Positions 10,713-33,492 of a stretch of 33,492 nt of DNA are shown here, piece by piece; within the stretch, counting starts at the first letter, position 1; each line of letters starts with the position of its first letter. The stretch spans positions 1-33,492 of the forward strand of contig JAOQAG010000023.1 of the NCBI GenBank assembly GCA_025963715.1, given 5' to 3'. The DNA comes from Bacteroidota bacterium. GTDB lineage: Bacteria > Bacteroidota > Bacteroidia > 2-12-FULL-35-15. Position numbers and translations under genes: made by a program. A model generated the notes under the pieces. The model searched no databases, was not told the DNA's origin, and saw only the letters and a list, made by a program, of their open reading frames with translations.

Positions 10713-12665
10713 ATGAAATCTACTACTCCTAGATTTCTCCTGAAACATGCATTTGTACTTGTTGGTTTTTGGGGACTTTTTACGTCCAATTCATACGGGC
10801 AAACCTATGTGAACGGCGACTATCAATCGGTTGCAACCGGCACCTGGGCAACAGCAGCTACCTGGCAAAAATTTGTGGGCGGCGTGTGGGCGGCTACTGG
10901 TGTAAATGTGGCGCCTCCAAGCGGTTATACTGCAGGAACGATCTATATCCAGACCGGTACAACAGTAACCGTTGCGGCAACACCTCTTTCGGAAGGCTAT
11001 TTGTATATCAACGGAGGAAGTCTTTCGATCAATCCGGGCGTTACATTTACAGTAGCAAACGGAACAAATGCCAACGATCTTAATATTGTGAGCGGAAGCG
11101 TGATCAACAATGGAACGCTTTCATTAGCAACTACCTCCATAGGCGTTTCCAACTCGGGTACACTTACCAACAACCTGGGTGGAACGGTGAATATGAATGG
11201 CGCCACTACTACGATCACCAATAATGCAGGCGCCGTGCTGACCAACTCGGGCACCATGCTCAATGGCGGTACAAACGTGCTGACTAACAACGGAACGATC
11301 AACAACAATTTAACATTTACCAACAACGGCACGATCACAAATAACAATGCCATTAACAATGCCGGAACGTTTATACAAAGCTCTACTGCATTTACCAATG
11401 CTGCTGCGGGAGTGCTAACCAACTACAGTATACTTACCATCAGTTCCACAAAAACACTGGTAAACAACGGAACCATTGTGAATGCAACTGCCGGTGTGAT
11501 CAACAGTGGACCGATTACATACGGCACACTACTATTTAACAACGGTAGTTTGTATCAGCATAATTTCAACAGCGCAGCAGGCACTGTTCCGAATGCAACC
11601 TGGGCTGCGGGCTCTACCTGCGAGATCCTTGCCTGTGGCAATTCCGGGAACGGGCCTACTAACCTTTCGCAAACATTCAGTGATTTTACATGGAACAACA
11701 GCACGCAAACGCCGGATATAAGCCTGAATGCACAACTGGGAACGGTGCGCAACCTGACGATCAAAAACACAAACACTTTTAATGTGGTGCTGAGAACTTC
11801 TTCCAATGGAATTCCGGCTGTAACAACGGTAACCGGAGATCTGATCATTTTACCAGGCGGTAATTTAGTACTCACCAACGGCGATGCCGAATATTCGACT
11901 TCCAACCATACGCTGAACGTTGCCGGGAATTACACACAAACCGGTGGCAAATGTGCACTTACTAACTGCAGCGCCAACACAAGTACACCGGTTACTGGTG
12001 GAACGGGAACACTTAACATTGCCGGAAATCTGAACTTCAACGCGGGTACATTGAACATCTGCGCCAGCACGGCTGCAGCCGGATGCGTTACAGGAACAGC
12101 AAGCGGGATCCTTAACCTTACCGGAAATTGTAATATTTCGGGCGGAACGGTAAGTGTTTGTTCCTCTACTGTAACGGGTGGCGGAGGAACCGGAACGATG
12201 AACATTGCAGGATCATTTACGCACATTGCAGGAACGGTTACAAAAACAGGCGCAAACACGGGTGTGATCAACATTAACGGAACGGCACTGCAAACTATTG
12301 AAAGTATTGGCTTTTCGGCGACCAGTAACCTTGGATTTAATATACAACAAAGCGGAGCGGGCACCACCACGATCGTGGCCAATAAAACATTTGTACTGAA
12401 CAGCAACACTATCTTTACTTTGTATGATAATACATCGGTAACAACCGATTTTACGATCAACGGAACCTTTACCACCAATACCAATACATGGATGCTTAAC
12501 ACGGCTCCTGCACCGGCATCACAAACGGAAGTATCCGGGCGTTTTAAAAACACCTCCGCCACTATCGGGACATCCGACAGCATAACGCTTACAAACGGTG
12601 TGTACATTATTAAAGCGCTAAGCGCGGATGGAATGATTGTGCAGAAACGGTTTGTGAAGCAGTAA
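10713..12665 (+). CDS. Secreted Asn/Thr/Gly-rich beta-repeat protein
   Basis: A 650-aa exported protein with a signal peptide about 1-30 (ending NSYGQ). Most of the chain is short repeats rich in Asn, Thr and Gly (NNGTINNNLTFTNNGTITNN, LTNSGTM), the pattern of a parallel beta-helix adhesin or surface filament. Residues about 395-520 hold three related units of roughly 40 residues, each with a TGTLNIAGNLNFNAGTL-like core and short-spaced cysteines (ICASTAAAGC, VCSS). The last 25 residues (NGVYIIKALSADGMIVQKRF) resemble the end of a type A T9SS sorting domain, but the usual YPNP opening is absent, so export by T9SS is uncertain. A surface or adhesion role is inferred from composition only. Confidence 0.7.
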   Translation: MKSTTPRFLLKHAFVLVGFWGLFTSNSYGQTYVNGDYQSVATGTWATAATWQKFVGGVWAATGVNVAPPSGYTAGTIYIQTGTTVTVAATPLSEGYLYINGGSLSINPGVTFTVANGTNANDLNIVSGSVINNGTLSLATTSIGVSNSGTLTNNLGGTVNMNGATTTITNNAGAVLTNSGTMLNGGTNVLTNNGTINNNLTFTNNGTITNNNAINNAGTFIQSSTAFTNAAAGVLTNYSILTISSTKTLVNNGTIVNATAGVINSGPITYGTLLFNNGSLYQHNFNSAAGTVPNATWAAGSTCEILACGNSGNGPTNLSQTFSDFTWNNSTQTPDISLNAQLGTVRNLTIKNTNTFNVVLRTSSNGIPAVTTVTGDLIILPGGNLVLTNGDAEYSTSNHTLNVAGNYTQTGGKCALTNCSANTSTPVTGGTGTLNIAGNLNFNAGTLNICASTAAAGCVTGTASGILNLTGNCNISGGTVSVCSSTVTGGGGTGTMNIAGSFTHIAGTVTKTGANTGVININGTALQTIESIGFSATSNLGFNIQQSGAGTTTIVANKTFVLNSNTIFTLYDNTSVTTDFTINGTFTTNTNTWMLNTAPAPASQTEVSGRFKNTSATIGTSDSITLTNGVYIIKALSADGMIVQKRFVKQ

Positions 12666-20058: not shown

Positions 20059-20571
20059 TCCAAAATCATCCCCCCGATTTCTACCACATAAGGAACAAAG
20101 GAACACATAAGGCGAAGCCCGGAGCTGCGTGTTTTTTTCACCACAAAAGAAACAAAAGGAAACAAAAGGACGAAGCTCACTATTGTTGCTCTTGTTTTAT
20201 GCGGGTTACCCCTCTGCGAAAGCGAAGCCTCAAAAAACACACAGAAAAAATATAGTAAACACATTGCCTCTGCGAGCTCTGCGTCTCTGCGAGAAAAAAA
20301 CACAAAGCATACACAATCCTTTGCGAACTCTGCGCCTCCTCTGCGTTCTTTGCGGTAAAATAACAACCTGCTTCAAATGCAGCTTTACCATTCGCACATT
20401 ATTGTAGATTTCTCTTCCCAATATTCTAATCACCTGATCTTCAAATTTATTAATATAAAAAAATGTTAAATCCAAGGCTGTTATTTTATCGTAAGTAATA
20501 ATCAGTTTATAGAAAATATAAACACTTTGGGCGACAGCAGACTGAAGAAGACAAATAAACCGTAACAAATC
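20059..20571. repeat. Non-coding spacer with degraded repeats
   Basis: This 513-base gap holds family D fragments (ACCACATAAGGAACAAAG at 20083-20100 and CACCACAAAAGAAACAAAAG at 20139-20158) and a run of related CTCTGCGnnCTCTGCG units at 20268-20362, a pattern of decayed tandem repeats. The last 170 bases are AT-rich and should contain the promoter of the DUF4331 genes, but I find no exact TAnnTTTG. No small gene is supported. Confidence 0.6.
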
Positions 20572-22326
20572 ATGAGAAAAACTACAAAAACAATCCTGGC
20601 TGTATCCGGTGTTATAGCAACTGCTATGGCAATAGGTATCTGGGATTCTCAGAAATCCACTGTGGAAGCATCCAGCCACAGGGAGGCGCCATTGATCGCA
20701 AACGATCCATTGGCCGACAACACGGACCTCTACGCATTCAGGAGTCCGGATGACACCAACACTGTTACCATCCTTGCCAATTATGTTCCCCTGCAAGTAG
20801 CGCAGGGCGGACCTAATTACGCTTCGTTTGGTGAAAACATCCGCTATGAAATCCACGTCGAAAACGATGGGGTTGCAGGCGATGACATTACCTATCGTTT
20901 TACTTTTACAAAAGTAAACGAAGATCCTACAACGTTTTTCAACATCCGTTTAGGACAGCAAAATTTGAAAACCACCTATGTGGCTGAAAAAAGTGTGAAC
21001 GGTGGCCCGTTTATGACCATTGTTACTGCAGGTGTTGTTCCTCCTCCGAACATTGGGCCACGCTCTATCAGCGATCCTACTGTAGGTTTAGGCGCAGCTA
21101 ATTACAATGCATTGGTTACTTCTTCTATCGCTAACGCAACAGGTGGTGGCGGAGAAACTATTTATTGCGGTCCGGCCGATGACCCCTTCTTTGTGGACCT
21201 GGGCGGAATCTTCGACTTAGGCCAAACACGCGGAAGTGCATCTGCCGGTGCGGTTGACGGTTTAAGCCACCGGAACATCCACACCATCGCGATCAAAGTT
21301 CCGATTGCTACGTTGCAAAAAAACGGGCAACCGGTTAGCGCTGCTGTGAATATTCTTGATGCGGACTATGTAATCGGTGTATGGGCTTCTGCAAGCAGAC
21401 CGGCTACACGCACATTGAGCACAACAGGCGGAAATCCGAATGATGCAGGCTCATGGGTACAGGTATCCCGCATTGGCATGCCGTTGACAAACGAAGCAAT
21501 TATTCCTATCGGCATGAAAGACAAATGGAATTCATTGACTCCTTATACAGAAGATCCGGCAATGGAAGCGTATTTCTGTAATCCGGAGTTAGGATTATAC
21601 ATGGATGCTTCTTTGTTTGGCAATGCAGTTCCTGCGATGTCGGCTTTGAGGATCCAACGCAACTCTTTACAATCATTTGATTTTGGAAATACACACGATG
21701 GTTTATGGCCGATCCGTGCTACTAACGGTGGTGCCGGTACAGCGCTGGATACCAACTTGTTTGGCAACTACCTGCTTCGCCAGGGACAGCCACGCTCTGT
21801 GGATCTGTTACCAATTTTTTACACAGGAGTTCCTAATTTAGCTCCTTACCAACTGGCTACCGGAAAAGGTGGAAACCCACTTGCTAACGGTAAACCATTT
21901 ATCAATAATTTTTTACCAACGTTTGGCGATATGTTGCGTTTGAACATGGCTGTGCCTGTTACGCCGCGTAACGATCCTAACTTCAGCTCACTGGGAATTA
22001 TCCAGGCATGTGTGTTAGGCTTAACAAATCCAGCTTACAACTCAAATGCATCATTGCAATTTATCCCTAACATGGATGGTTTCCCGAACGGACGCCGTTT
22101 AGAGGATGATGTAACGCGCATTGAATTGCAAGCGGTGAGCGGTGCTGCATTAGCGGCTATCGGATTGTGGTATGATGATTACACAACGGGGAACCCCGTA
22201 ACACCTGATTTGTTAGGCGTATTGGGTTATACTACCGGTGTGGAACATAACGATACTACGTTCAAAGCTGCTTTCCCTTATGTACAAACACCTTGGGAAG
22301 GGTATGCAAATCACCAGAAACAATAA
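20572..22326 (+). CDS. DUF4331 protein, copy 1 (no sorting domain)
   Basis: A 584-aa exported protein. The N-terminal hydrophobic segment is about 7-25, with a possible cleavage after TVEA, just before the family hallmark SSHREAPLIANDP. Residues 35-575 are a DUF4331 domain (NTDLYAFRSPDDTNTV, GPNYASFGENIRYEI, FDFGNTHDGLWPIRATN, DMLRLNMAVP). The function of DUF4331 is unknown. The protein ends after TPWEGYANHQKQ, exactly where its tandem paralogue continues into a T9SS tail, so this copy probably stays periplasmic or is exported another way. The second copy starts 31 bases downstream. Confidence 0.85.
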   Translation: MRKTTKTILAVSGVIATAMAIGIWDSQKSTVEASSHREAPLIANDPLADNTDLYAFRSPDDTNTVTILANYVPLQVAQGGPNYASFGENIRYEIHVENDGVAGDDITYRFTFTKVNEDPTTFFNIRLGQQNLKTTYVAEKSVNGGPFMTIVTAGVVPPPNIGPRSISDPTVGLGAANYNALVTSSIANATGGGGETIYCGPADDPFFVDLGGIFDLGQTRGSASAGAVDGLSHRNIHTIAIKVPIATLQKNGQPVSAAVNILDADYVIGVWASASRPATRTLSTTGGNPNDAGSWVQVSRIGMPLTNEAIIPIGMKDKWNSLTPYTEDPAMEAYFCNPELGLYMDASLFGNAVPAMSALRIQRNSLQSFDFGNTHDGLWPIRATNGGAGTALDTNLFGNYLLRQGQPRSVDLLPIFYTGVPNLAPYQLATGKGGNPLANGKPFINNFLPTFGDMLRLNMAVPVTPRNDPNFSSLGIIQACVLGLTNPAYNSNASLQFIPNMDGFPNGRRLEDDVTRIELQAVSGAALAAIGLWYDDYTTGNPVTPDLLGVLGYTTGVEHNDTTFKAAFPYVQTPWEGYANHQKQ

Positions 22327-22357
22327 GTTGAGTAGAAACTATTAAACAGAAAAAATC

Positions 22358-24430
22358 ATGAAAAAGATATCAACCGGAAAAATCCTTTCCATCGCAGGTA
22401 TTGTGGCTGTAGCCGCAGGATTTGGGATCTGGGATTCTCAAAAATCCACTGTGGAGGCATCCAGCCACAGGGAAGCGCCATTGATCGCAAATGATCCACT
22501 GGCGGATAATACGGACTTATATGCATTCAGAAGTCCTGATGATACCAACACGGTTACCATCCTTGCCAACTACGTTCCTTTGCAAACACCGCAGGGCGGA
22601 CCAAACTATGCATCCTTCGGTGAAAACATCCGTTACGAAATTCACATTGAAAACAATGGTGTTTCAGGCGATGACATCACTTACCGTTTTACATTTACAA
22701 AAACAAACCAGGATCCAACAACGTTTTTCAACATCCGTTTAGGACAACAAAATCTGAAAACGACCTACATTGCTGAAAAAAGCGTGAACGGCGGAACGTT
22801 CTCAACCATCGTAAGCAATGGTATTGTTCCTCCTCCGAATATCGGGCCACGCTCTATCAGCGATCCTACCGTAGGTTTAGGTGCATCCAATTATGCTGCA
22901 TTAATGACAGCAGCCATTACACCTGCAACAGGTGGCGGCGGAGAAGTTGTTTATTGCGGACCGGCTGACGACCCTTTTTTTGTTGACTTAGGCGGGATCT
23001 TCGACCTTGGACAAACACGCGCAGGCGGAACAGGTGTGAATGCACCGGTGGATGGTGTTGCATGTAAAAATGTACATACGATCGCACTGAAAATCCCAAT
23101 TGCTACTTTGCAGAAAAACGGAAACCCTGTTTCAATGGCTACCAGTATTCTTGATGGTAACTACGTGATCGGTGTGTGGGCTTCTGCAAGCAGACAACAG
23201 ATCAGAACGCTGAATGGCGATGGTACTGAAGCTTATTCAGGATCATGGGTACAGGTTTCACGTATCGGTATGCCGTTAACAAACGAAGCGGTGATCCCTA
23301 TCGGTTCAAAAGACAAATGGAACTCGTTGACTCCTTACAACGAAGATCCTTCCATGGAAGCGTATTTCTGTAATCCTGAATTAGGATTGTACATGGATAA
23401 CTCTTTGTTCGGCGGTGCAGTTCCTGCAATGTCGGCTTTGAGAATTCAACGCAACTCTTTACAATCATTCGATTTTGGAAATACACACGATGGTTTATGG
23501 CCGATCCGCGCTACTAACGGTGGTGCAGGTACAGCGTTGGATACCAACTTATTTGGTAACTACCTGCTTCGCCAGGGGCAGCCACGTTCGGTGGATTTGT
23601 TACCGATCTTTTATACAGGTGTTCCAAACTTAGCGCCTTACCAATTGGCTACCGGCAAAGCCGGAAACCCATTGGCGAATGGTAAACCATTTATCAATAA
23701 CTTCTTACCAACGTTTGGCGATATGCTGCGTTTGAACATGGCAGTGCCGGTTACGCCGCGTAACGATCCAAAATTCAGCTCACTTGGCTTGGTTCAGGCT
23801 TGTGTATTAGGATTAACAGATCCTGCTTACAACTCAAATGCTTCGTTGCAGTTTATTCCTAACATGGATGGTTTCCCGAACGGGCGCCGTTTAGAGGATG
23901 ACGTTACACGTATTGAATTACAGGCAGTGAGCGGTGTGGTTTTAGCTGCTGTTGGTTTGTGGTATGATGATTACACAACAGGAAGCCCTGTTACACCTGA
24001 TTTATTAGGCGTATTGGGTTACACTACCGGTGTGGAAGCAAACGACACTACTTTCCAATCCGGCTTCCCGTACGTGCAGGCACCATGGAGCGGTTACGGA
24101 AAATGCGGCGGCCCTACTCCATTACCTACCGGGATCAACGGTTACGGAATTGGTGTAGCTGCACCTGAAATGAACATGATGAACTATCCTAATCCTGTGA
24201 AAGACAATACTACTTTCAAATACAGATTAACGGAAAACGCAGTAGTGAACATTTCGATCTTTGACCTTACCGGTAAAAAAGTGGCAACGATTGTAAGCAG
24301 CCAAATGAAACAGGCTGGTACATACGAAGTGGTATGGAATGCTGAGAATGTAAGCAATGGTACATACATCGCTTCTTTATCAACCGGACAACGGATCATT
24401 CAAACAATTAAAGTATCTGTTTCCAGGTAA
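22358..24430 (+). CDS. DUF4331 protein, copy 2, with T9SS sorting domain
   Basis: A 690-aa protein. Residues 1-570 are nearly the same as copy 1, including the SSHREAPL hallmark; most nucleotide differences are at third codon positions, so it is an older tandem duplication under selection. It then adds a linker (YGKCGGPTPLPTG) and a type A T9SS sorting domain at about 607-690 (MMNYPNPVKDNTTF, then VNISIFDLTGKKVATI, ending NGTYIASLSTGQRIIQT). It should be exported across the outer membrane by T9SS and held at the surface. It is co-oriented with copy 1 and closes at a strong terminator. Role unknown; context suggests a surface part of the TonB/HupE locus downstream. Confidence 0.9.
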   Translation: MKKISTGKILSIAGIVAVAAGFGIWDSQKSTVEASSHREAPLIANDPLADNTDLYAFRSPDDTNTVTILANYVPLQTPQGGPNYASFGENIRYEIHIENNGVSGDDITYRFTFTKTNQDPTTFFNIRLGQQNLKTTYIAEKSVNGGTFSTIVSNGIVPPPNIGPRSISDPTVGLGASNYAALMTAAITPATGGGGEVVYCGPADDPFFVDLGGIFDLGQTRAGGTGVNAPVDGVACKNVHTIALKIPIATLQKNGNPVSMATSILDGNYVIGVWASASRQQIRTLNGDGTEAYSGSWVQVSRIGMPLTNEAVIPIGSKDKWNSLTPYNEDPSMEAYFCNPELGLYMDNSLFGGAVPAMSALRIQRNSLQSFDFGNTHDGLWPIRATNGGAGTALDTNLFGNYLLRQGQPRSVDLLPIFYTGVPNLAPYQLATGKAGNPLANGKPFINNFLPTFGDMLRLNMAVPVTPRNDPKFSSLGLVQACVLGLTDPAYNSNASLQFIPNMDGFPNGRRLEDDVTRIELQAVSGVVLAAVGLWYDDYTTGSPVTPDLLGVLGYTTGVEANDTTFQSGFPYVQAPWSGYGKCGGPTPLPTGINGYGIGVAAPEMNMMNYPNPVKDNTTFKYRLTENAVVNISIFDLTGKKVATIVSSQMKQAGTYEVVWNAENVSNGTYIASLSTGQRIIQTIKVSVSR

Positions 24431-24458
24431 TTTTAATTGATAATAAATTGGTTATCAA

Positions 24459-24490
24459 AAAAAGCCGGGCAGCTTTGTCCGGCTTTTTTT
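24459..24490 (+). terminator. Rho-independent terminator after DUF4331 pair
   Basis: Stem AAAAAGCCGG/CCGGCTTTTT with a 10-base loop and a following T-run, 28 bases after the stop. Confidence 0.9.
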
Positions 24491-24516
24491 AAACTGTTTT
24501 TGTGTACTTTTAAATA

Positions 24517-24823
24517 AAATGAAGCAGGAAAGTTTATACCAACTTTTTCGATCTGAGTAATCTCATTTATAGCCTGTGTTAGATTAGTTTTTTGCCACAG
24601 ATGCACAGATTAAAAATTACAAAAAGATTGCACGGATTGTAAAAATCGCTTTGCGATTTTGTCTGTGAAAATTAAATTTTTATTTAAAAATCTGTGAATC
24701 TGTGGCTTTATTTTGTTTAGATAACACGTATTGGTGTGAGATTGCTTCGTCCACCCAGGCGGACTCGCAATGACGTTCTTAAACTATTTTTTTACAATAC
24801 AAAATTCCGGATACTTCATTTAA
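24517..24823. repeat. Family A element, copy A3, carrying family B
   Basis: The left end AAATGAAGCAGGAAAGTTTA and the reverse complement of the right end (AAATGAAGTATCCGGAATTT) form imperfect terminal inverted repeats. Inside are a full family B element (24594-24706) and a family A palindrome core TGAGATTGCTTCG...CTCGCAATGACG (24736-24775). The flanks are AT-rich with TTAAAT at both ends. No transposase. It fills the gap between the DUF4331 terminator and the TPR gene. Confidence 0.8.
24594..24706. repeat. Family B inverted-repeat element, copy B1
   Basis: The ends GCCACAGATGCACAGATTAA and, complementary, AATCTGTGAATCTGTGGC enclose a central hairpin AAAATCGC/GCGATTTT. Copy B2 at 32060-32172 is very similar. 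Confidence 0.8.
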
Positions 24824-24835
24824 ATTAAAGAAACC

Positions 24836-26170
24836 ATGCGTAAAAATTTATACACCATTTTAGTTGTTGCAACAATTATTATTTTCGGATTGATTTTACT
24901 TTTTGCAAAAAAGCCTAAGAAAACGGTTGCAGGTTTAAAAGAGCGTACCGGCTCCATCGCGTTAAACGCAGAATGGCTGGATACAAAAAAAGCGATTGAA
25001 GGATTGCTGGCTGCCATAGCTGCAAATCCACAAAATTACAAAGCAAAATTAAACCTGGCGCAGGCCTATATCCAGGAAGCACGCGTAACGGGCGATCACG
25101 GATATTATGATAAAGCGGCGCTGGACCTGCTGGATGATGTGATCCAGAATGAACCCAAGAATTTTGATGCCCTGTGCTGCAAAGCAACGGTGCTGTTATC
25201 ACAGCATCATTTTGCAGATGGACTGGCGGTTGCACAACAGGCATTACCATTGAATCCGAACAGTGCATTTATTTACGGACTGATGTGCGACTCGTATGTA
25301 GAATTGGGAAATTATCAGGAAGCAGTAAAAATGTCGGACAAGATGGTTTCCATTCGCCCCGACAACCGCTCCTATGCACGCATCTCTTACCTGCGCGAAA
25401 TTCACGGCGATCTGCCGGGAGCGATTTCCGCAGCAAAACTGGCAGTATCTGCAGGCTATCCGGGATTGGAACAAACGGAATGGTCGCGCACGATCTTAGC
25501 CCATTTATATGAAAACACCGGCCACCTTGATAGTGCCGAGCAACAATATAGAATTGCCTTACAGGAACGTCCTGATTATGCTTTTGCGATAGCCGGGCTC
25601 GGGCGATTGGAAAAAGCAAAAGGCAATTACAAAGAAGCGATCGCGGATTATGAAAAAGCAAAAGGCATCATCAAGGAATATTCCTTTACGGATGAGTTAA
25701 CCGACCTGTACCGTTTGACCAATCAACCGGATAAAGCCAACCAATCGGCACAGGAAGTGATTGACATGCTGAGCCCGCTTTCCAATGCGGATGAAAGCAG
25801 CAGCTCACACGGCCATTACGCCGATAAAGAATTAGCTTATGCGTATTTAAAAACCGGCGATACCGATAATGCATATAAACACGCCATGCTGGAATACGAC
25901 AGAAGGCCTGATAACATTGATGTATGCGAAACTGTTGCCTGGGTAGATTATAAAAAAGGCAATTTTGCCGAAGCCAATAAAATGATGAACACTGCATTGC
26001 GCACGCATTGCCAAAATCCGGTATTCCTTTGCCATGCCGGATTAATAAAAATAAAAGCAGGCGAAACAGCAGCGGGAAAAGCAATGATCCAAAAAGCATT
26101 TACCACCAATCCCTTCATCACGGATGTTGACCTGAAAAATGAAGCATCGAAATACTTAATTGCACTTTAA
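24836..26170 (+). CDS. Membrane-anchored TPR protein
   Basis: A 444-aa protein with one N-terminal membrane segment (about 5-23, TILVVATIIIFGLILLF) and no cleavage site, so the rest probably faces the periplasm. Residues about 45-440 are TPR-type helical pairs (LDLLDDVIQNEPKNFDALCC, LPLNPNSAFIYGLMCDSYVE, YRIALQERPDYAFAIAGLGR). A HupE-family gene begins one base after its stop, so the two are translationally linked and likely form one unit. The TPR part may scaffold partners of that permease or of the DUF4331/TonB proteins nearby; this is inferred from context only. Confidence 0.8.
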   Translation: MRKNLYTILVVATIIIFGLILLFAKKPKKTVAGLKERTGSIALNAEWLDTKKAIEGLLAAIAANPQNYKAKLNLAQAYIQEARVTGDHGYYDKAALDLLDDVIQNEPKNFDALCCKATVLLSQHHFADGLAVAQQALPLNPNSAFIYGLMCDSYVELGNYQEAVKMSDKMVSIRPDNRSYARISYLREIHGDLPGAISAAKLAVSAGYPGLEQTEWSRTILAHLYENTGHLDSAEQQYRIALQERPDYAFAIAGLGRLEKAKGNYKEAIADYEKAKGIIKEYSFTDELTDLYRLTNQPDKANQSAQEVIDMLSPLSNADESSSSHGHYADKELAYAYLKTGDTDNAYKHAMLEYDRRPDNIDVCETVAWVDYKKGNFAEANKMMNTALRTHCQNPVFLCHAGLIKIKAGETAAGKAMIQKAFTTNPFITDVDLKNEASKYLIAL

Positions 26171-26171
26171 T

Positions 26172-26849
26172 ATGACGCTCTCCACCAATAAACGCATTGC
26201 ATATTTTGTTACCTGCTTCGTTTTATTATTGCTTCCGCAGATGCTGTCGGCACACGCGATTGCTGCCGATATGAGTAAATTTTCACGTACGGATGTGGCG
26301 CTTATTTATTTAAAATTCGGTTATACGCACATCATTCCGCTGGGTATTGACCATATTTTATTTGTACTCAGTTTGTTTTTCCTGAACCCAAAATTAAAAG
26401 TGGTGATCTGGCAGGCAACTGCATTTACGGTGGCGCATTCCATCACACTGGGTTTGGCGCTGTACGGATTAATTTCGCCGCCAACGTACATTGTGGAGCC
26501 GGTAATTGCATTATCCATTATGTTTGTAGCCATCGAAAATATTATTTCCGATAAATTAAGGCCATCACGCGTATTGGTGGTGTTCGGTTTTGGTTTGATC
26601 CACGGAATGGGATTTGCAAGCGCGCTTACCGATCTCGGCTTACCGAAAAACGAATTTTTAACATCATTGCTTACGTTTAATTTAGGTGTGGAACTGGGGC
26701 AGCTTACCATCATTTTGTTAGCCTGGTTCCTGATCGGGAAATGGTTCCATAACAAACCCTGGTACCGCAAACGCATTGTGATCCCAATATCGGCGGTGAT
26801 TGCGGCCGTTGCTTTGTACTGGACAATTCAGCGGACTTTTTTTCCGTAA
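26172..26849 (+). CDS. HupE/UreJ family membrane protein
   Basis: A 225-aa inner-membrane protein. A signal-like first segment (ending MLSAHA, so the N-terminus may be processed) is followed by about six further membrane segments. Family motifs include HIIPLGIDHILFVLSLFFL and TAFTVAHSITLGLALY, FGLIHGMGFASAL and NLGVELGQL; the conserved His residues are those thought to bind metal in HupE/UreJ nickel permeases. The metal is not proven, as the broad HupE/UreJ_2 subfamily is found without nickel enzymes. I start at the ATG at 26172 rather than the in-frame TTG at 26160 that overlaps the TPR gene, since the ATG sits one base after that stop. No hydrogenase or urease gene is in view. Confidence 0.8.
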   Translation: MTLSTNKRIAYFVTCFVLLLLPQMLSAHAIAADMSKFSRTDVALIYLKFGYTHIIPLGIDHILFVLSLFFLNPKLKVVIWQATAFTVAHSITLGLALYGLISPPTYIVEPVIALSIMFVAIENIISDKLRPSRVLVVFGFGLIHGMGFASALTDLGLPKNEFLTSLLTFNLGVELGQLTIILLAWFLIGKWFHNKPWYRKRIVIPISAVIAAVALYWTIQRTFFP

Positions 26850-27469
26850 AGAGATTTTTATTTCAAAAGTACAGTTCATCTATATGTTTACTTTTTGAAG
26901 GCAAAAAGTAACAAAAACCTTTTCTGGCCTGTAATGTAATTTTTCCTTCCGCTGACGCTGCAGGAAAACCGCGGTTAATTTCGCGGATGCGGATTGTCAC
27001 TTCGTAGCTTTAATTTTTCTGCCGCTCATTTCCGCTATTACTGAACAGGCCGAAAGAGTCTGCAGAATGAGTATCCTGTTTCTTTTACATAGTGGCAGCA
27101 GAATGTTTGAGAAGCGAAGTACGATTTTAATTCATCCCGATCCGAAGGGAGTATGAAAAAGAAGTTCAGAAGGGCGCGGTGGCCGGAATAAGTAGCGGGG
27201 AGGCTTCGGATGGTGCGTGGTGCGCCGCGGCGGATTGTTCTTGTCCCGCAGGTGCGGGATTGTTTCTTTTTGTTTCAAGACAAAAAGAAAAAAGGATATG
27301 ATAAGACTCAAATTCATTTTCCATACTTTGAGATCAAAATAAACCCACATTTTCTAACGTAGAACTATTCGATATTAATTTTCCAATAATCATTTAAAAA
27401 TAAATCCAAAAACAAAAACACACCGTAAATACAGCGTAAATAAATCGCAGATCCACATAAATAAACCGT
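26850..27469. repeat. Family E interspersed element (about 26889-27295) and AT-rich leader
   Basis: Bases 26889-27295 have a distinct, GC-richer middle bounded by matching hairpins CTTTTTGAAGGCAAAAAG (26891-26908) and CTTTTTGTTTCAAGACAAAAAG-like (27266-27287), which are themselves related as inverted repeats. Similar elements recur in other Bacteroidota genomes, as far as I recall. The remaining bases are AT-rich with ACACCGTAAATACAGCGTAA near 27420-27440. I see no supported gene. Confidence 0.55.
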
Positions 27470-27853
27470 ATGATTATCAACAGGTACATAAAAAAAGTAA
27501 TAGTATACACATTCCTGTGTATCTATTCTTTTGCCCTGTTGAAACCGGTCATGCCGATTGTGGATGACGTGATTGCACATACTTTTTATAAAATGCAGCA
27601 TTTGGCAACGGTGCATTTCGAGAATGGAAAATACCACGTGCATACGGAATTAGCCAATGATGCCAACCAGCAAAAAGGCGATACAAAAGGCTTGCCGTCC
27701 GGCGTGTATGAAACGCTTGCCAATCACATTACCAGCAGCGGTGTATTTGAATTCAATACTTATTCTACCGTACAATCCACCAACATTTTATACAAAGCAC
27801 AACATCCTGTTGCAGTTTTTATAAAAGATCCCACGCCTCCGCCCGAGGTATAA
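27470..27853 (+). CDS. Small His-rich exported protein
   Basis: A 127-aa protein of no family I can name. An N-terminal hydrophobic segment (about 10-28) without a strong cleavage site is followed by a short His-rich stretch, with His37, 44, 49, 56 and 58 among 22 residues (HTFYKMQHLATVHFENGKYH). Glu51 and Glu60 lie nearby. The remainder is polar and ends in PTPPPEV. It lies between a HupE-family permease and a TonB-dependent receptor, so a periplasmic metal-binding or chaperone role is an attractive inference. I recall similar HxENGKxHxHxE proteins beside TonB receptors in related genomes but cannot check. Confidence 0.65.
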   Translation: MIINRYIKKVIVYTFLCIYSFALLKPVMPIVDDVIAHTFYKMQHLATVHFENGKYHVHTELANDANQQKGDTKGLPSGVYETLANHITSSGVFEFNTYSTVQSTNILYKAQHPVAVFIKDPTPPPEV

Positions 27854-27859
27854 ATCCTA

Positions 27860-28043
27860 TTGGTACTGTTGTTAAGAATGTTTTTTCTTTACAATATTCA
27901 CATACAATATTGTCATCCCGGGCTTGACCCGGGATCTCATGAATGGTAGCAGTATTTAATTGGCAGATCCCGGGTCAGGCCCGGGATGACAGCTCAGTAA
28001 AATATTTCTGTTTCCATAGCAACATTGTTCTACAACATAACCA
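27860..28043. repeat. Family C MITE-like element, copy C1
   Basis: Imperfect terminal inverted repeats of about 22 bp (27860-27882 and 28022-28043, core TGGTnnnGTTGTnnnnAATGTT) enclose a palindromic core, TGTCATCCCGGGCTTGACCC at 27911 and its inverted partner ending at 27991. The right half, with flank, recurs at 33406-33492. The 415-base spacer otherwise holds only AT-rich sequence and the leader of the TonB receptor. Confidence 0.8.
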
Positions 28044-28268
28044 TCTCCTTTAATTATCTTATTTAAAGAAAAGTTTAAGCGCTGTTTGAACTGATTCCTG
28101 CTATTCACATTCGTAAAATTTCAAGGGATTGGAAGCATTGAGTTTTTGTAGTCTCATTTGCCGGATCATACACAGGAAAAAGCGAACAGGATTTAAACTT
28201 TTCTTCCTGCACAATTATCATTGGCATTCACCGGGAAAAATCCTTCTCCTTAATTCCTATTGCATAAT

Positions 28269-30584
28269 ATGAAGATAACGCTACTTAACAAAAAATACAT
28301 TTTCCTTTTTTTATCATTACTTAGCGGGCTTGGCCTGATGGCGCAAACTGCTGCCATTAAAGGAACAGTGAAAGATAAAGAAACCAGTCAGCCGGTGGAA
28401 GATGTAGTAGTAAGCATCGAAAAAACAAACACGCACTTCCACACCGATGCCGCCGGAAATTTTAATTTTGAAGCAATGCCCGCAGGTATTTACGAACTCG
28501 ATTTTAATAAATTCGGATACGAAAAACAAACGATAAGCATCACACTTGCAGAGAATCAAACACAGGAAGTAAACATCCTGCTGGTGTTCAATGCAAAATC
28601 ATTAAAAGTGGTGGATGTACAATCGGATCGCCCGACATCAGCTGCTTCTTCCAAATTTTTAAGCCAGGTGGATTTTGAGAACCGCCCGAAAAACTCCGCG
28701 CAGGACATGCTGCGTTTGGTTCCCGGATTATTTATTGCACAACATGCAGGCGGCGGAAAAGCAGAACAGATCTTTATCCGCGGCTTTGATTGCGATCATG
28801 GAACCGACGTAGCAACATTTGTGGATGGAATGCCGGTAAATATGCCGAGTCACGGACACGGACAAGGTTACGAAGACCTGCATTTCCTGATCCCGGAAGT
28901 GGTACAGGGAATGGACGTTTTTAAAGGTCCGTATGCACCGCAATACGGCAATTTTGCAACCGGTGCTGCCGTGCAATTCAATACAGTGGATACACTCGAT
29001 CATAATTTAGTGCAATTAGAAACCGGCTATGTACCCAATGTGTCCAACATTACAGCAAAACGCGGTTTGGGATTATTACAGTTGCCTGATCTTGGATCCA
29101 GGATAACTTCGTATGTAGCGGTGGATGTTTTAAACAACCGCGGCTATTTCCAGAATAGCCAGGACTTTAACCGCATCAGCGTATTTTCCAAAACCGTATT
29201 TAATTTAAATGATCACAGCACCATTAAATTTTCCGCAGGCGGATTTGGCTCGTCATGGAATGCATCCGGGCAAGTACCGGAGCGTGCCGTAAATTCCGGT
29301 TACATCAGCCGGTTTGGAAGCATTGATAATTCCGAAGGCGGAACCACACAACGCAATAATTTTAATCTGACCTACAACACCAAATTACCGAAAGGATCGG
29401 AGTTTGAAACACAAGTATATGCAGCCACTTATCGCTTTAAATTATTTTCCGATTTTACATTTTACCTCGAAGATCCCATACACGGCGATGAGATCGAGCA
29501 GGATGATAACCGCAGCATTCGCGGCCTGAATGCACATTACACCGTTCCGCATAAATTGGGGAACATGAATAATAAATTCACACTTGGAACTTCTTTTCGT
29601 GCCGATGATATTGAGAACCAATTATGGCATGCCGAAAAACGTACCCGTTTGGAGATCCGTGCAAACGCTATTATTCACGAACGTTCCACCGGTGTGTATG
29701 CCAACGAGGTATTTCGTTTCAGCGAGCATTTCCGCGCGGAATTAGGTTTACGCTACGATTATTTTATTTTTGATGTAGATGATCTGTTGAAAACCGATTC
29801 CACGCACACCAATTATTCGGGATACAATTATCAAACGTTATTAAGCCCCAAATTAAACCTGATCTATACGGCAACCGATCACTTACAATTATTTTTTAAT
29901 GCCGGAAGCGGTTATCATTCCAATGATGCACGCTCGGTGGTGCAACAGCCGAACGTACATACATTGCCACGTGCTGTGGGTGCAGAAGTGGGTGCGCTGG
30001 CACATTTAGGAAACAAATTTGTGGTTTCTGCTGCTGCATGGTGGATGGACCTCGAAAACGAACTGGTGTATGTGGGTGATGATGGTACAACCGAAAATCA
30101 CGGCCCGAGCCGCCGCATGGGAATCGACCTGAGCGCACGCCTGCAGCTTACCAGCTGGCTGTATGCCGATGTGGATGTGAACCTTGCAAAAAACAGGTTC
30201 ATTGATACCTTGTTCGGGGTGCAATTAAAAACAGATTATTATTTGCCGCTGGCGCCTATCGCAACATCCGCAGGCGGCTTAACAATAAAATTAAAAAACG
30301 GATTTGAAGCGGGCATCCGCTACCGCTACATGGCTGCGCGTCCGGCCAACGAAAGCAACAGCGTTACCGCACGCGGATATAATGTAGTGGATCTGACTGC
30401 GAATTATAAAATCAGGAAAATAAAAATTGGTTTGGTGATCGAAAATTTATTGAATACAGAATGGAATGAAGCGCAGTTTGATACAGAAAGCCGTTTACCG
30501 TTTGAGAGTAAATCCGTGGATGAATTGAATTTTACGCCGGGAACACCGTTTGCAGCGAAAATTATTTTGGGGTATATATTTTAG
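28269..30584 (+). CDS. TonB-dependent outer-membrane receptor
   Basis: A 771-aa receptor. The signal peptide is about 1-25 (ending GLMAQ), then a carboxypeptidase-regulatory-like domain (about 28-110, IKGTVKDKETSQPVEDVVVS), a plug (about 120-235, AQDMLRLVPGLFIAQHAGGG and IFIRGFDCDHGTD), and a 22-strand-type barrel to the C-terminus, which ends in IILGYIF with the terminal Phe expected of outer-membrane barrels. The plug has a His-rich turn NMPSHGHGQGYEDLHF that is conserved in a subgroup of such receptors. The substrate is unknown; the His-rich turn and the neighbouring His-rich and HupE-type proteins make a metal or metal complex plausible. I chose ATG 28269 over the TTG at 28260 because it begins a standard signal peptide. 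Confidence 0.9.
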   Translation: MKITLLNKKYIFLFLSLLSGLGLMAQTAAIKGTVKDKETSQPVEDVVVSIEKTNTHFHTDAAGNFNFEAMPAGIYELDFNKFGYEKQTISITLAENQTQEVNILLVFNAKSLKVVDVQSDRPTSAASSKFLSQVDFENRPKNSAQDMLRLVPGLFIAQHAGGGKAEQIFIRGFDCDHGTDVATFVDGMPVNMPSHGHGQGYEDLHFLIPEVVQGMDVFKGPYAPQYGNFATGAAVQFNTVDTLDHNLVQLETGYVPNVSNITAKRGLGLLQLPDLGSRITSYVAVDVLNNRGYFQNSQDFNRISVFSKTVFNLNDHSTIKFSAGGFGSSWNASGQVPERAVNSGYISRFGSIDNSEGGTTQRNNFNLTYNTKLPKGSEFETQVYAATYRFKLFSDFTFYLEDPIHGDEIEQDDNRSIRGLNAHYTVPHKLGNMNNKFTLGTSFRADDIENQLWHAEKRTRLEIRANAIIHERSTGVYANEVFRFSEHFRAELGLRYDYFIFDVDDLLKTDSTHTNYSGYNYQTLLSPKLNLIYTATDHLQLFFNAGSGYHSNDARSVVQQPNVHTLPRAVGAEVGALAHLGNKFVVSAAAWWMDLENELVYVGDDGTTENHGPSRRMGIDLSARLQLTSWLYADVDVNLAKNRFIDTLFGVQLKTDYYLPLAPIATSAGGLTIKLKNGFEAGIRYRYMAARPANESNSVTARGYNVVDLTANYKIRKIKIGLVIENLLNTEWNEAQFDTESRLPFESKSVDELNFTPGTPFAAKIILGYIF

Positions 30585-30635
30585 AAGTCACAACACCGAT
30601 TTTATCGCTTGCGATTGATACGGAACAATAAAATT

Positions 30636-30742
30636 CACCACAAAAGGAACAAAAGAAAACATAAGGGATGATGTAACATGCTAATGTTTATTATGTATTT
30701 AACAGGCCCGGCCTTATGTTTTCTTTTGTTCCTTTTGTGGTG
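30636..30742. repeat. Family D element with perfect 31-bp inverted repeat
   Basis: Arms 30636-30666 (CACCACAAAAGGAACAAAAG...) and 30712-30742 are exact complements around a 45-base loop. Fragments recur at 20083-20170. It lies between the convergent TonB receptor and DUF1569 genes. Its AT-rich hairpin could slow transcription, but there is no classical terminator. Confidence 0.8.
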
Positions 30743-30810
30743 AAAAAATGGCAAGATGCCATTGAATAGAGAGGCACGAGTGGGACAACGCGCCTGCAAA
30801 GGATTTAAAT

Positions 30811-30856
30811 GATCTGTGTAATTCTTTTTTAATTTTTTAATCTGTGAATCTGTGGC
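30811..30856. repeat. Family B fragment (B3)
   Basis: The right half of family B, ending AATCTGTGAATCTGTGGC, abuts the stop codon of the DUF1569 gene. Confidence 0.6.
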
Positions 30857-30866
30857 GAAATTACAT

Positions 30867-32015: not shown

Positions 32016-32216
32016 TAAATGGCTATAAGGAAGTTTATACTATAAAGATTAATTTTTTTGCCACAGATTCACGGATCAAAAAATCATAAAAAATTACACG
32101 AATTTGTAAAAATCGCTTTGCGATTTTATCTGTGAAATAAAATTTCTATTTAAAAATCCGTGAATCTGTGGCTTCATTTATTTAGATGGTATATGCTGGT
32201 GTGAGATTATTTCTTC
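32016..32216. repeat. Family A element, copy A5, carrying family B (right end lost)
   Basis: The left terminus AAATGGCTATAAGGAAGTTT is followed by family B (32060-32172) and then the start of the palindrome, GGTGTGAGATTATTTCTTCA, which decays before any right terminus. The internal order is the same as in A3. With the family F unit it fills the 379-base gap before the GldL-like gene; the rest is AT-rich leader. Confidence 0.7.
32060..32172. repeat. Family B element, copy B2
   Basis: Ends GCCACAGATTCACGGAT and complementary ATCCGTGAATCTGTGGC, with the same central AAAATCGC/GCGATTTT hairpin as B1. The arms are more perfect than in B1. Confidence 0.8.
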
Positions 32217-32300
32217 ACTTGGTGTATCCCAATAACGTGTACAACTTTAACTGGTTTATTGCAAAAATTAAATATATTTACATATCTAAAACCCACTACT

Positions 32301-33344
32301 ATGAAAAAAGCCCTCATCATTATCGGTTATTTTGTTTTATTCCTGATTTGTTTTGCCACATTATTCAAGATGATGCATTGGCCGGGTGCCGGTCCATTAT
32401 TCGTGCTTGGGGATTTCTTTTTCTGCATCGTTTTTCTTCCCTTATTTTTTATCCAGCGGATGATTTCTCAAAAAACAGCGCTCAATACTATTACTAATAT
32501 TTTCGGGCTTTTAACCACCTGGATGATCTTCATGGGCATCATGTTCAAAATGATGCACTGGCCGGGTGCCGGACCGATGCTGGTTTTAGGGACCATTTTA
32601 TTTGTGGCTCCTACGCTTATTCTTTATGTGGTCCAGCAATTCAAAGAATACGACCGTAAATTTTCCGAATTCTGGAAACTGGTGGCAGGTACCATCCTGA
32701 TTTGCGTATTCCTGATTTTTTGGGGACTAAAACCTTCCCTCAATTTAATCACAGGTTATTTAAAAGTGGAAGATGAAACATTAAAAGCAAATAAAAGCAT
32801 GGAAATTGCAAATGACCGCATGCATGCAATGGTTATCAGGACTTCTGATCCGGCGATCATAAGATTTGCCGACGAGCTGCACGCATCCACCAGCGAAGTT
32901 GTAACCACCATCGAGAACATTAAAACCGGTTTAATTTCTACCGTAGAACATAATCCCGAAGCACCAAAGGATCACTGGCAAATTAATTCCCTCGACAATT
33001 ATGACATTCCATCACACATACTTGGAAACGCTGAAAGCCACGAAGGAATAGAGCTGCATGATCAACTCGTGAATTACAAAAAAGAGATCCTGGAGAAAAT
33101 AAGCACACTCTCGTTTGCAGATAAAGAAAAAATGATCGCCGATTTGGGAGATCTTGGAATCTCAACGGAAGCAAGGAATATGCCCGAAGGTTACGAAGGG
33201 TTTGGAACCTGGCAGGAAAACATGTTTTATGAAAACACATTGGCCAGTGCCCTTGCCACGCTTTCGAGCCTGCAAAACCAGGTATTAAATGCAGAATTCA
33301 CAACGCTTGGCGCTGTTGCAGACCGGGAAGCAGGAACGAAATAA
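32301..33344 (+). CDS. GldL-like membrane protein with duplicated FKMMHWPGAG
   Basis: A 347-aa inner-membrane protein. Five membrane segments are likely (about 5-21, 33-52, 66-81, 93-112, 121-142), followed by a soluble, mostly helical domain of about 200 residues. The sequence FKMMHWPGAG occurs twice, at 22-31 and 82-91, exactly 60 residues apart. It is the hallmark at the end of the first helix of GldL, the proton-driven motor subunit of T9SS/gliding (FKxxHWPGAG). GldL has one such hairpin; this protein has two in tandem plus an extra helix, and there is no GldK, GldM or GldN beside it. I infer a GldL-derived membrane protein, perhaps a separate ion-driven unit. I start at the ATG at 32301; the alternative at 32259 would add 14 polar residues before the first helix. 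Confidence 0.75.
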   Translation: MKKALIIIGYFVLFLICFATLFKMMHWPGAGPLFVLGDFFFCIVFLPLFFIQRMISQKTALNTITNIFGLLTTWMIFMGIMFKMMHWPGAGPMLVLGTILFVAPTLILYVVQQFKEYDRKFSEFWKLVAGTILICVFLIFWGLKPSLNLITGYLKVEDETLKANKSMEIANDRMHAMVIRTSDPAIIRFADELHASTSEVVTTIENIKTGLISTVEHNPEAPKDHWQINSLDNYDIPSHILGNAESHEGIELHDQLVNYKKEILEKISTLSFADKEKMIADLGDLGISTEARNMPEGYEGFGTWQENMFYENTLASALATLSSLQNQVLNAEFTTLGAVADREAGTK

Positions 33345-33405: not shown

Positions 33406-33492
33406 TATGGTTATGTTGCAGAACATTATTGTTTATGGAAACAGAAATACTTTCTTAAGCTGTCATCCCGGGCTTGACCCGAGATCTGTCAA
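33406..33492. repeat. Family C element, copy C2 (cut by right edge)
   Basis: TGGTTATGTTGCAGAACATT, then GGAAACAGAAATA and TGTCATCCCGGGCTTGACCC, match the reverse complement of 27970-28043. The element leaves the window. Confidence 0.75.

Follow-up and report, generated by a model that had tools for sequence, protein, structure and literature searches.

A conserved DUF4331 gene group of Bacteroidota and its possible role in transition-metal uptake

The window analysed here, a stretch of 33,492 nucleotides from a Bacteroidota genome (assembly GCA_025963715.1, contig JAOQAG010000023.1), carries a row of six genes that encode two DUF4331 proteins (a and b), a tetratricopeptide repeat (TPR) protein, a HupE/UreJ_2 permease, a small protein of 127 amino acids (aa) and a TonB-dependent receptor (Table 1). 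The original prediction, made from the DNA letters, had described six co-oriented genes in this order, and all six open reading frames (ORFs), their common orientation and their Pfam families were confirmed. The group around DUF4331 is a real and widely conserved one, and its components and neighbours make it likely that the locus is a transition-metal uptake unit.

The two DUF4331 proteins are 84% identical and match PF14224 over the entire profile (positions 1-421 of 421 in both) with 432.1 and 436 bits against a cut-off of 27. Only DUF4331b carries a sorting tail (PF18962, Por_Secre_tail, 39.4 bits, cut-off 27; TIGR04183, 37.4 bits, cut-off 23), in agreement with the proposal that this second copy is of the type exported by the type IX secretion system (T9SS). 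The permease matches PF13795 with 158.8 bits (cut-off 24.5), beginning at residue 50 of 229, and its ATG (26172) does lie, as had been noted, one base past the TPR stop (26170); the Pfam scan of the receptor gives PF07715 (E 9.9e-18), PF00593 (E 5.8e-31) and CarbopepD_reg_2, and many relatives of the TPR protein have a lipoprotein-type signal (N-termini judged by eye). The small protein, without a Pfam or NCBIfam match, is His-rich only in the modest sense that seven of its 127 residues are His, five of them inside residues 37-58; its relatives occur at 8 of the 80 named-genome loci described below. Gaps along the six genes measure 31, 405, 1, 620 and 406 bases, a looser spacing than at most related loci, and the repeat families that the prediction had placed between several of the genes were located there. 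Since these repeats and a terminator-like hairpin separate the genes, the six are probably not one transcript; the hairpin has the longest stem listed among 24 terminator-like sites, compared with a mean of 12.2 in shuffled sequences. By Pfam scan, the genes on the left-hand side of the six belong to unrelated types. Elsewhere in the source genome (4.9 Mb in 51 contigs, 98.5% complete) there is no DUF4331, and one further HupE_UreJ_2 gene adjoins genes for a DUF6702-like protein and an M1-type peptidase (assigned by eye).

Table 1. Features of the DUF4331 locus, in window coordinates except where residues are given.
Feature	Position	Strand	Basis or detail
DUF4331 protein a, 584 aa	20572..22326	+	PF14224 E 3.8e-129; signal peptide, without sorting tail
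Predicted mature N-terminus NH2-SSHREAP, DUF4331 protein a	20671-20691	+	cleavage register, rule-based
DUF4331 protein b, 690 aa	22358..24430	+	PF14224 E 2.3e-130; PF18962 E 7.8e-10; TIGR04183
T9SS type A sorting domain in DUF4331 protein b	residues 610-682
Predicted mature N-terminus NH2-SSHREAP, DUF4331 protein b	22460-22480	+	cleavage register, rule-based
Terminator-like hairpin and T run 3' of DUF4331b	24457..24490	+	15 pairs, 6 G-C
TPR protein, 444 aa, N-terminal membrane anchor	24836..26170	+	TPR_19 E 5.8e-19
HupE/UreJ_2 permease, signal peptide	26172..26849	+	PF13795 (HupE_UreJ_2) E 1.1e-46
Predicted mature N-terminal His of HupE (LSA/HAIAADM, cleavage at the stroke)	26253-26255	+	rule-based
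Small protein, 127 aa, membrane-type N-terminus, His cluster at residues 37-58	27470..27853	+	ORF
TonB-dependent receptor (alternative ATG 28269)	28260..30584	+	CarbopepD_reg_2, Plug and TonB barrel by Pfam
Receptor plug motif	28797-28886	+

Conservation of the group was assessed in two collections. The whole-genome set comprises 296 genomes of the phylum Bacteroidota, of which 38 have DUF4331 by profile hidden Markov model (HMM) search, 19 in a long form (source genome included) and 19 split into short neighbouring pieces, and up to 20 kb was taken around each of the 37 loci other than the window. The named-genome set consists of the best 80 of at least 579 relatives, so that close relatives are over-represented; besides Bacteroidota, which make up almost all of it, it includes a few Ignavibacteria and one Calditrichaceae assembly, and it was gathered partly with the motif SSHREAP (see below) as search pattern, whereas the HMM-found set of 38 was not. 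Clustering places a TPR relative at 35 of the 38 whole-genome loci (window included), a receptor at 18 and HupE at 8. Where at least 6 kb was available on both sides (47 named-genome loci, 33 of the 80 being dropped), that distance includes TPR at 43 loci, the receptor at 31, HupE at 16, an extracytoplasmic function (ECF) sigma factor at seven and an RskA-type anti-sigma factor at four. Of the named-genome loci, 56 of 70 have the TPR gene directly after DUF4331 on the same strand, as do 14 of 18 long-form loci of the whole-genome set, and the earlier expectation that the genes are kept together in other genomes was thus not refuted. Typically the order in Bacteroidota is DUF4331, then TPR, then often the TonB receptor and sometimes HupE, with mostly operon-like gaps between same-strand neighbours: medians are 27 bases between DUF4331 genes (51 of 52 gaps at most 150 bases), 94 from DUF4331 to TPR (58 of 72), 2 from TPR to HupE (28 of 29) and 32 from TPR to receptor (20 of 24).

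Were the neighbourhood a product of neutral clustering, with no function in common, the hairpin and repeats that separate the window genes would be readily understood. This explanation is already contradicted by the contrast between near and far sequence of the same contigs, in which partner matches closer than 5 kb to DUF4331 and beyond that limit number 65 versus 0 for TPR, 27 versus 0 for HupE and 41 versus 2 for the receptor (79 of the 80 loci, one without a scored DUF4331 being dropped; 648 kb near, 468 kb far); the short gaps at other loci and the retention of the core in other phyla likewise oppose it, and we regard it as very improbable.

A further alternative is suggested by the regulators, since ECF sigma factors occur at 14 and RskA-type anti-sigma factors at 12 of the 38 whole-genome loci (by clustering, the families being confirmed on examples), and such a pair stands upstream in Pseudoalteromonas. 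DUF4331 could then be an ECF-controlled surface sink or sensor that binds a toxic metal under envelope stress, with HupE and the receptor serving homeostasis; a CzcC/TolC-like protein (assigned by eye) follows in three split-form loci (L063, L064 and L068). We judge this unlikely, however, given that a TonB-dependent receptor, which is an import component, is present at 31 of the 47 well-covered loci, and that no ECF factor was found among the Pfam-scanned genes of the window. At locus L043 a ChrR cupin-like domain protein (11162-11788) lies 5' of DUF4331, where others carry the RskA-type anti-sigma factors.

The core is also found outside the phylum. Thirty-four plasmid records matched DUF4331b (two Salinibacter records match in the T9SS tail only), and eight of the ten that were examined lie outside Bacteroidota. 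In Pseudoalteromonas the row runs ECF sigma factor, anti-sigma factor, DUF4331, an Ig-like protein, a TPR protein (by Pfam) and HupE/UreJ, and in both Lichenicola and Marinobacter DUF4331 is accompanied by HupE/UreJ and by a TPR-like protein, the latter weak in Lichenicola, so that the order DUF4331-TPR-HupE recurs in Gamma- and Alphaproteobacteria, with a weak TPR in the latter. Streptomyces anulatus combines DUF4331 and TPR with a NicO nickel transporter that has a His-rich loop, and Miltoncostaea has DUF4331 with an annotated TPR protein. The DUF4331 genes of Jannaschia, Paracoccus and Sulfitobacter are situated between a gene for an A24 prepilin peptidase and genes of type II secretion (T2SS), with HupE absent from the stretch of these records that was examined.

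From this gene position, DUF4331 of the Rhodobacterales would be T2SS cargo, and the involvement of two unrelated terminal secretion systems, the T9SS tail in one case and the T2SS neighbourhood in the other, points to a cell-surface or extracellular protein. We conclude that DUF4331 is probably secreted or surface-bound. The family thus presents three export settings (T9SS tail, T2SS cluster and plain signal peptide) with a recurring core around it. At 39 of 41 two-copy loci the tail-less copy comes first and the tailed copy second, according to a C-terminal extension rule that missed at least two tailed proteins (L091 and the second copy of L086); L086, one of the two exceptions to the order, does end in a tail, and 69 of 71 C-terminal extensions match Por_Secre_tail at E <=0.01. 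On the Rhodobacterales plasmids of Jannaschia, Paracoccus and Sulfitobacter (L074, L075 and L078) the small type II secretion cluster that holds DUF4331 is possibly a dedicated secretion system. In the split form (L050-L068, e.g. L052 9350-10627) the N-half is secreted and begins with ADHIDAP, and the C-half is in most cases a protein of its own with, by eye, a lipoprotein-type signal.

An AlphaFold2 model of DUF4331 is confident (predicted local distance difference test score, pLDDT, 90.8; predicted template modelling score, pTM, 0.93), with a strand-rich first half and a mainly helical remainder. Residues 1-10 have a mean pLDDT of 70 in the whole model and 56 in a model of the N-half, where they are among the least certain parts; this is compatible with a flexible tip, though no proof of one. 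Searching the PDB with the DUF4331a sequence returned one chance match (E 1.1), and Foldseek found none at E <=0.001 for the whole model or the N-half. VIA-align gave best Z values of 5.3 (122 residues aligned, root-mean-square deviation, rmsd, 3.0) and 8.0 (120 aligned, rmsd 3.6), nearly all of its matches being immunoglobulin chains; these would reflect at most a common beta-sandwich arrangement, and no solved relative was recognised among the families listed. No paper naming DUF4331 or PF14224 was found in the open-licence PubMed Central (PMC) literature, nor one that combines HupE, a TonB-dependent receptor, Bacteroidetes and tetratricopeptide.

An amino-terminal copper- and nickel-binding (ATCUN) site chelates Cu(II) or Ni(II) through a free amine, two backbone amides and a His in third position. 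The most conserved stretch of DUF4331 is SSHREAP, located at the end of the signal peptide. All 16 sequences compared from Bacteroidota, Proteobacteria and Actinomycetota have it unchanged, and so do all 101 sequences of a set selected by that motif. Cleavage in front of SSH agrees with the (-3,-1) rule of signal peptidase I in every one of the 129 long forms that have 16 or more residues ahead of the motif, 116 of them with Ala at -1, compared with 2 of 129 for a start one residue earlier and 23 of 129 for one residue later. A start at +2 (NH2-HREAP) also satisfies it in all 129 long forms, trivially so because the two Ser and mostly the Ala before them are fixed, but none of the 19 split forms passes there. 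The split form has ADHxD(A/T)P in the same place, where the rule holds at ADH in 18 of 19 sequences, at +1 in 10 and at -5, inside the hydrophobic core, in 19, two of them with Ala at -1. By a cruder rule, the 360 other signal-peptide-like proteins from these loci include 5 with His at +3. Fragments below 800 bits fall outside this scoring, and a first comparison of register also left out three ORFs that lack a complete N-terminus, as well as L056, because the pattern did not cover its start, ADHIDTP. Accordingly, nearly every N-terminally complete DUF4331 that was scored is predicted by the rule to start X-X-His, the ATCUN arrangement, and DUF4331 may well bind metal through its mature N-terminus. 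Two automatic predictors were rejected in favour of this column-by-column comparison: a first-match cleavage rule, by which just 30 of 101 DUF4331 proteins have His at +3 and which in our opinion fails by stopping in the Ala-rich core, and an unsupervised cleavage profile, which drifted to hydrophobic and lipobox patterns. The latter chose another site in most long forms, +1 (NH2-DH) in 15 of 19 split forms, and a site at neither SSH nor the His in the window proteins.

Capture of metal by an N-terminal His feeding a HupE permease is of an already known kind, as anglerases consist of Ang-1 or Ang-2 N-terminal-His domains on HupE/UreJ-2 permeases (Nat Commun 2025, PMC12537917); two purified domains were reported there, Ang-1 binding Cu(II) and Ni(II), and Ang-2 Cu(II). 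The window permease shares the predicted His as first residue after the signal peptide, as do most of its counterparts: 32 of the 36 HupE proteins of these loci have His right after Ala at the predicted cleavage site (two of these have Met at -3, and the other 30 pass the strict rule), and the remaining four have no signal peptide. However, it is not a strict anglerase, since it has only a short segment ahead of the membrane part and lacks a folded periplasmic Ang domain, PF13795 starting 18 residues after the predicted His1 (residue 32). The capture protein in the window would instead be a separate secreted DUF4331 with His3, accompanied by TPR and the TonB receptor. A longer N-terminal region is present in the Pseudoalteromonas permease, with PF13795 starting at residue 178 of 366 and His after the signal peptide (by eye), and the Lichenicola and Marinobacter permeases resemble it (also by eye). 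DUF4198 proteins, the nickel-binding secreted proteins of the same paper, are alike in secretion, in a mostly N-terminal His and in TonB receptor and NikR neighbours, but belong to another Pfam family, have the His at position 1 and come mostly from Pseudomonadota (PMC12537917). HupE of Rhizobium leguminosarum, described as a nickel transporter, is alike in being a HupE/UreJ type permease; the window genome differs in that no hydrogenase was found. The locus had been put forward as a candidate undescribed one, which holds for DUF4331 and the cassette within the open-licence PMC literature and not for the HupE part, the type of which is described in PMC12537917. The main text of that paper, as available, has no occurrence of DUF4331, ATCUN or TPR, and the new elements would be the separate surface protein with His3, its T9SS or T2SS export, the TonB receptor and TPR.

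The receptor does have the His-rich plug turn originally noted, HGTD...PVNMPSHGHGQGYEDLHF at residues 180-209, and this is kept, with the consensus HGTD...HGHGQGYxDLHF, in 61 of 62 receptors of the examined loci. Its closest solved receptors by phmmer are PqqU/YncD (49.5 bits) and BtuB (41.5 bits). Relatives were found in 47 plasmid records, of which 14 hand-picked for variety (one Hymenobacter and 13 proteobacterial) were examined, the regions in two Adhaeribacter records being examined separately. NikR and HoxN were sought by tblastn, because the ORF caller, which favours long ORFs, missed true genes in G+C-rich records; of the 13 proteobacterial records, eight have NikR and/or HoxN next to the receptor relatives, with NikR present in six of them and HoxN in three. 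BLASTP identity between the window receptor and the proteobacterial relatives L159, L160 and L163 is about 31-32% (290-308 bits), and the HGTD turn is present in four of the five proteobacterial relatives compared, L161 being without it. TonB-dependent nickel receptors named so far include FrpB4, FecA3, CntO and Bll6948 (PMC11247825); relatives of the window receptor likewise adjoin NikR, HoxN or hydrogenase genes, whereas the window receptor itself is linked to DUF4331 and no NikR was found in its genome. On the Hymenobacter plasmid locus L162 (3145-12672), three DUF3500 proteins replace DUF4331 beside HupE/UreJ and the same receptor type, and DUF3500 may be an analogue of DUF4331.

Gene association, export signals, the N-terminal register and family membership are given by the sequences, and from them we infer metal binding, transport, the order of hand-over, the direction of uptake, regulation and the identity of the metal. 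We lean, somewhat beyond even chances, to a metal-capture and uptake cassette in which a hook at the surface is combined with a TonB gate and with a permease tipped by His, the metal being Ni(II) or, failing that, Cu(II). DUF4331 would be exported; the type IX system would fix the tailed copy to the cell surface, and the copy without a tail would be periplasmic or released. Signal-peptidase cleavage would bare NH2-Ser-Ser-His, or NH2-Ala-Asp-His in the divergent split form, as an ATCUN-type chelate for square-planar Ni(II) or Cu(II), with which DUF4331 could capture or present the ion or its complex; for this ATCUN step, too, the balance tips only a little in favour. The TonB receptor with its plug turn would move the ion across the outer membrane, perhaps with the 127-aa protein as helper at that step, the envelope-anchored TPR protein would dock partners, and the HupE/UreJ_2 permease with its predicted N-terminal His would deliver the ion to the cytoplasm. 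The surface-to-inner-membrane metal route originally proposed thus fits the components better than the alternatives considered, and its gene group is conserved, whilst its role in metal handling is a deduction. As a more tentative generalisation, which we hold at rather less than even, DUF4331 proteins may be ATCUN hooks spanning phyla, secreted by T9SS or T2SS according to host and relaying metal through a TonB receptor to a HupE or NicO permease that is often His-first. To our knowledge, little is known of how trace metals such as nickel and copper pass the two membranes of Bacteroidota. If correct, the model would provide the first function for DUF4331 and extend N-terminal-His metal capture beyond domains fused to permeases, to cell-surface proteins in their own right, an idea that hinges on one residue, His3 of mature DUF4331.

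Several observations weigh against the cassette, and against nickel as its cargo. HupE lies within 6 kb of DUF4331 at only 16 of the 47 well-covered loci, so that another permease must often serve. No [NiFe] hydrogenase, urease, LarA or NikR was found in the source genome, a tblastn search of 118 Bacteroidota DUF4331 loci returned neither NikR nor HoxN, and hydrogenase (E <1e-50) is present in only three of the 38 DUF4331 genomes, with two more weak matches (E >1e-4). The cleavage site is rule-based and both automatic predictors mostly chose other sites, and conservation as high as that of the His extends to the R, E, A and P that follow it, more than a bare ATCUN site calls for. The equal conservation of R4-E5-A6-P7 and His3, together with the many invariant R, D and N residues across three phyla (GFPNGRR..DD included), is what would be expected if DUF4331 were an enzyme, or bound an organic ligand or metal chelate as an adhesin-like receptor, with SSHREAP playing a structural part and no part in metal binding. 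In the very divergent split form, however, the motif reduces to about His-x-(D/E)-Ala-Pro, with the His in the same place after predicted cleavage, and metal-permease and receptor neighbours recur; we therefore consider an enzyme or adhesin improbable, if less so than the stress sink.

As to the metal, the same route and parts could carry copper (or cobalt) instead of nickel. Copper fits ATCUN chemistry and the Cu preference of Ang domains, and the source genome has heme-copper oxidase subunit I, but no hydrogenase, urease or LarA was found in it. On the other side, 8 of 13 proteobacterial records link the receptor relatives to NikR and to HoxN, a Ni permease, and HupE/UreJ and NiCoT are described as Ni/Co transporters (PMC2667541), in a source that also records organisms with nickel transporters yet no known nickel enzyme. 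For cobalt, an Rfam scan of the window and five loci gave no B12 riboswitch and no match of any kind, which speaks weakly against it. We put copper (or cobalt) as the cargo at roughly one chance in three, and nickel itself at about evens, slightly ahead on the strength of the NikR/HoxN neighbours, the HupE and NicO families and ATCUN chemistry. Hydrogenase is over cut-off in 107 of all 296 genomes, although the thresholds differ from those of the 38-genome count and lineage is a confounder, and urease (E <1e-50) in 4 of 38 DUF4331 genomes versus 10 of 296 overall; as lineage was not controlled, no conclusion is drawn from this profile. Nickel superoxide dismutase was unmatched in the source genome, in a search that gave no match in any control genome either.

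Further features of the window and of related loci were noted. In Hymenobacter (L122, L126, L142, L148, L152 and L154) a different small protein, of the pattern YVHS/YMHS...C...CFxxCNGxQ, or similar, lies near the place of the 127-aa protein. A palindromic intergenic repeat around CTGTGAATCTGTGG occurs at 24588-24713, 30819-30863 and 32054-32179 of the window, with five matches at two or fewer mismatches versus 0.08 expected. The repeat family TTCACCACAAAAGG... (20133-20172, 30634-30666 and 30709-30748) and CCCGGG-rich inverted repeats (27911-27991 and 33434-33492) flank the locus and precede the receptor gene. Finally, a 361-aa ORF at 32259-33344 has two GldL-type membrane motifs (FKMMHWPGAGP) fused with a GldM-like region and so resembles a hybrid of both T9SS motor proteins.

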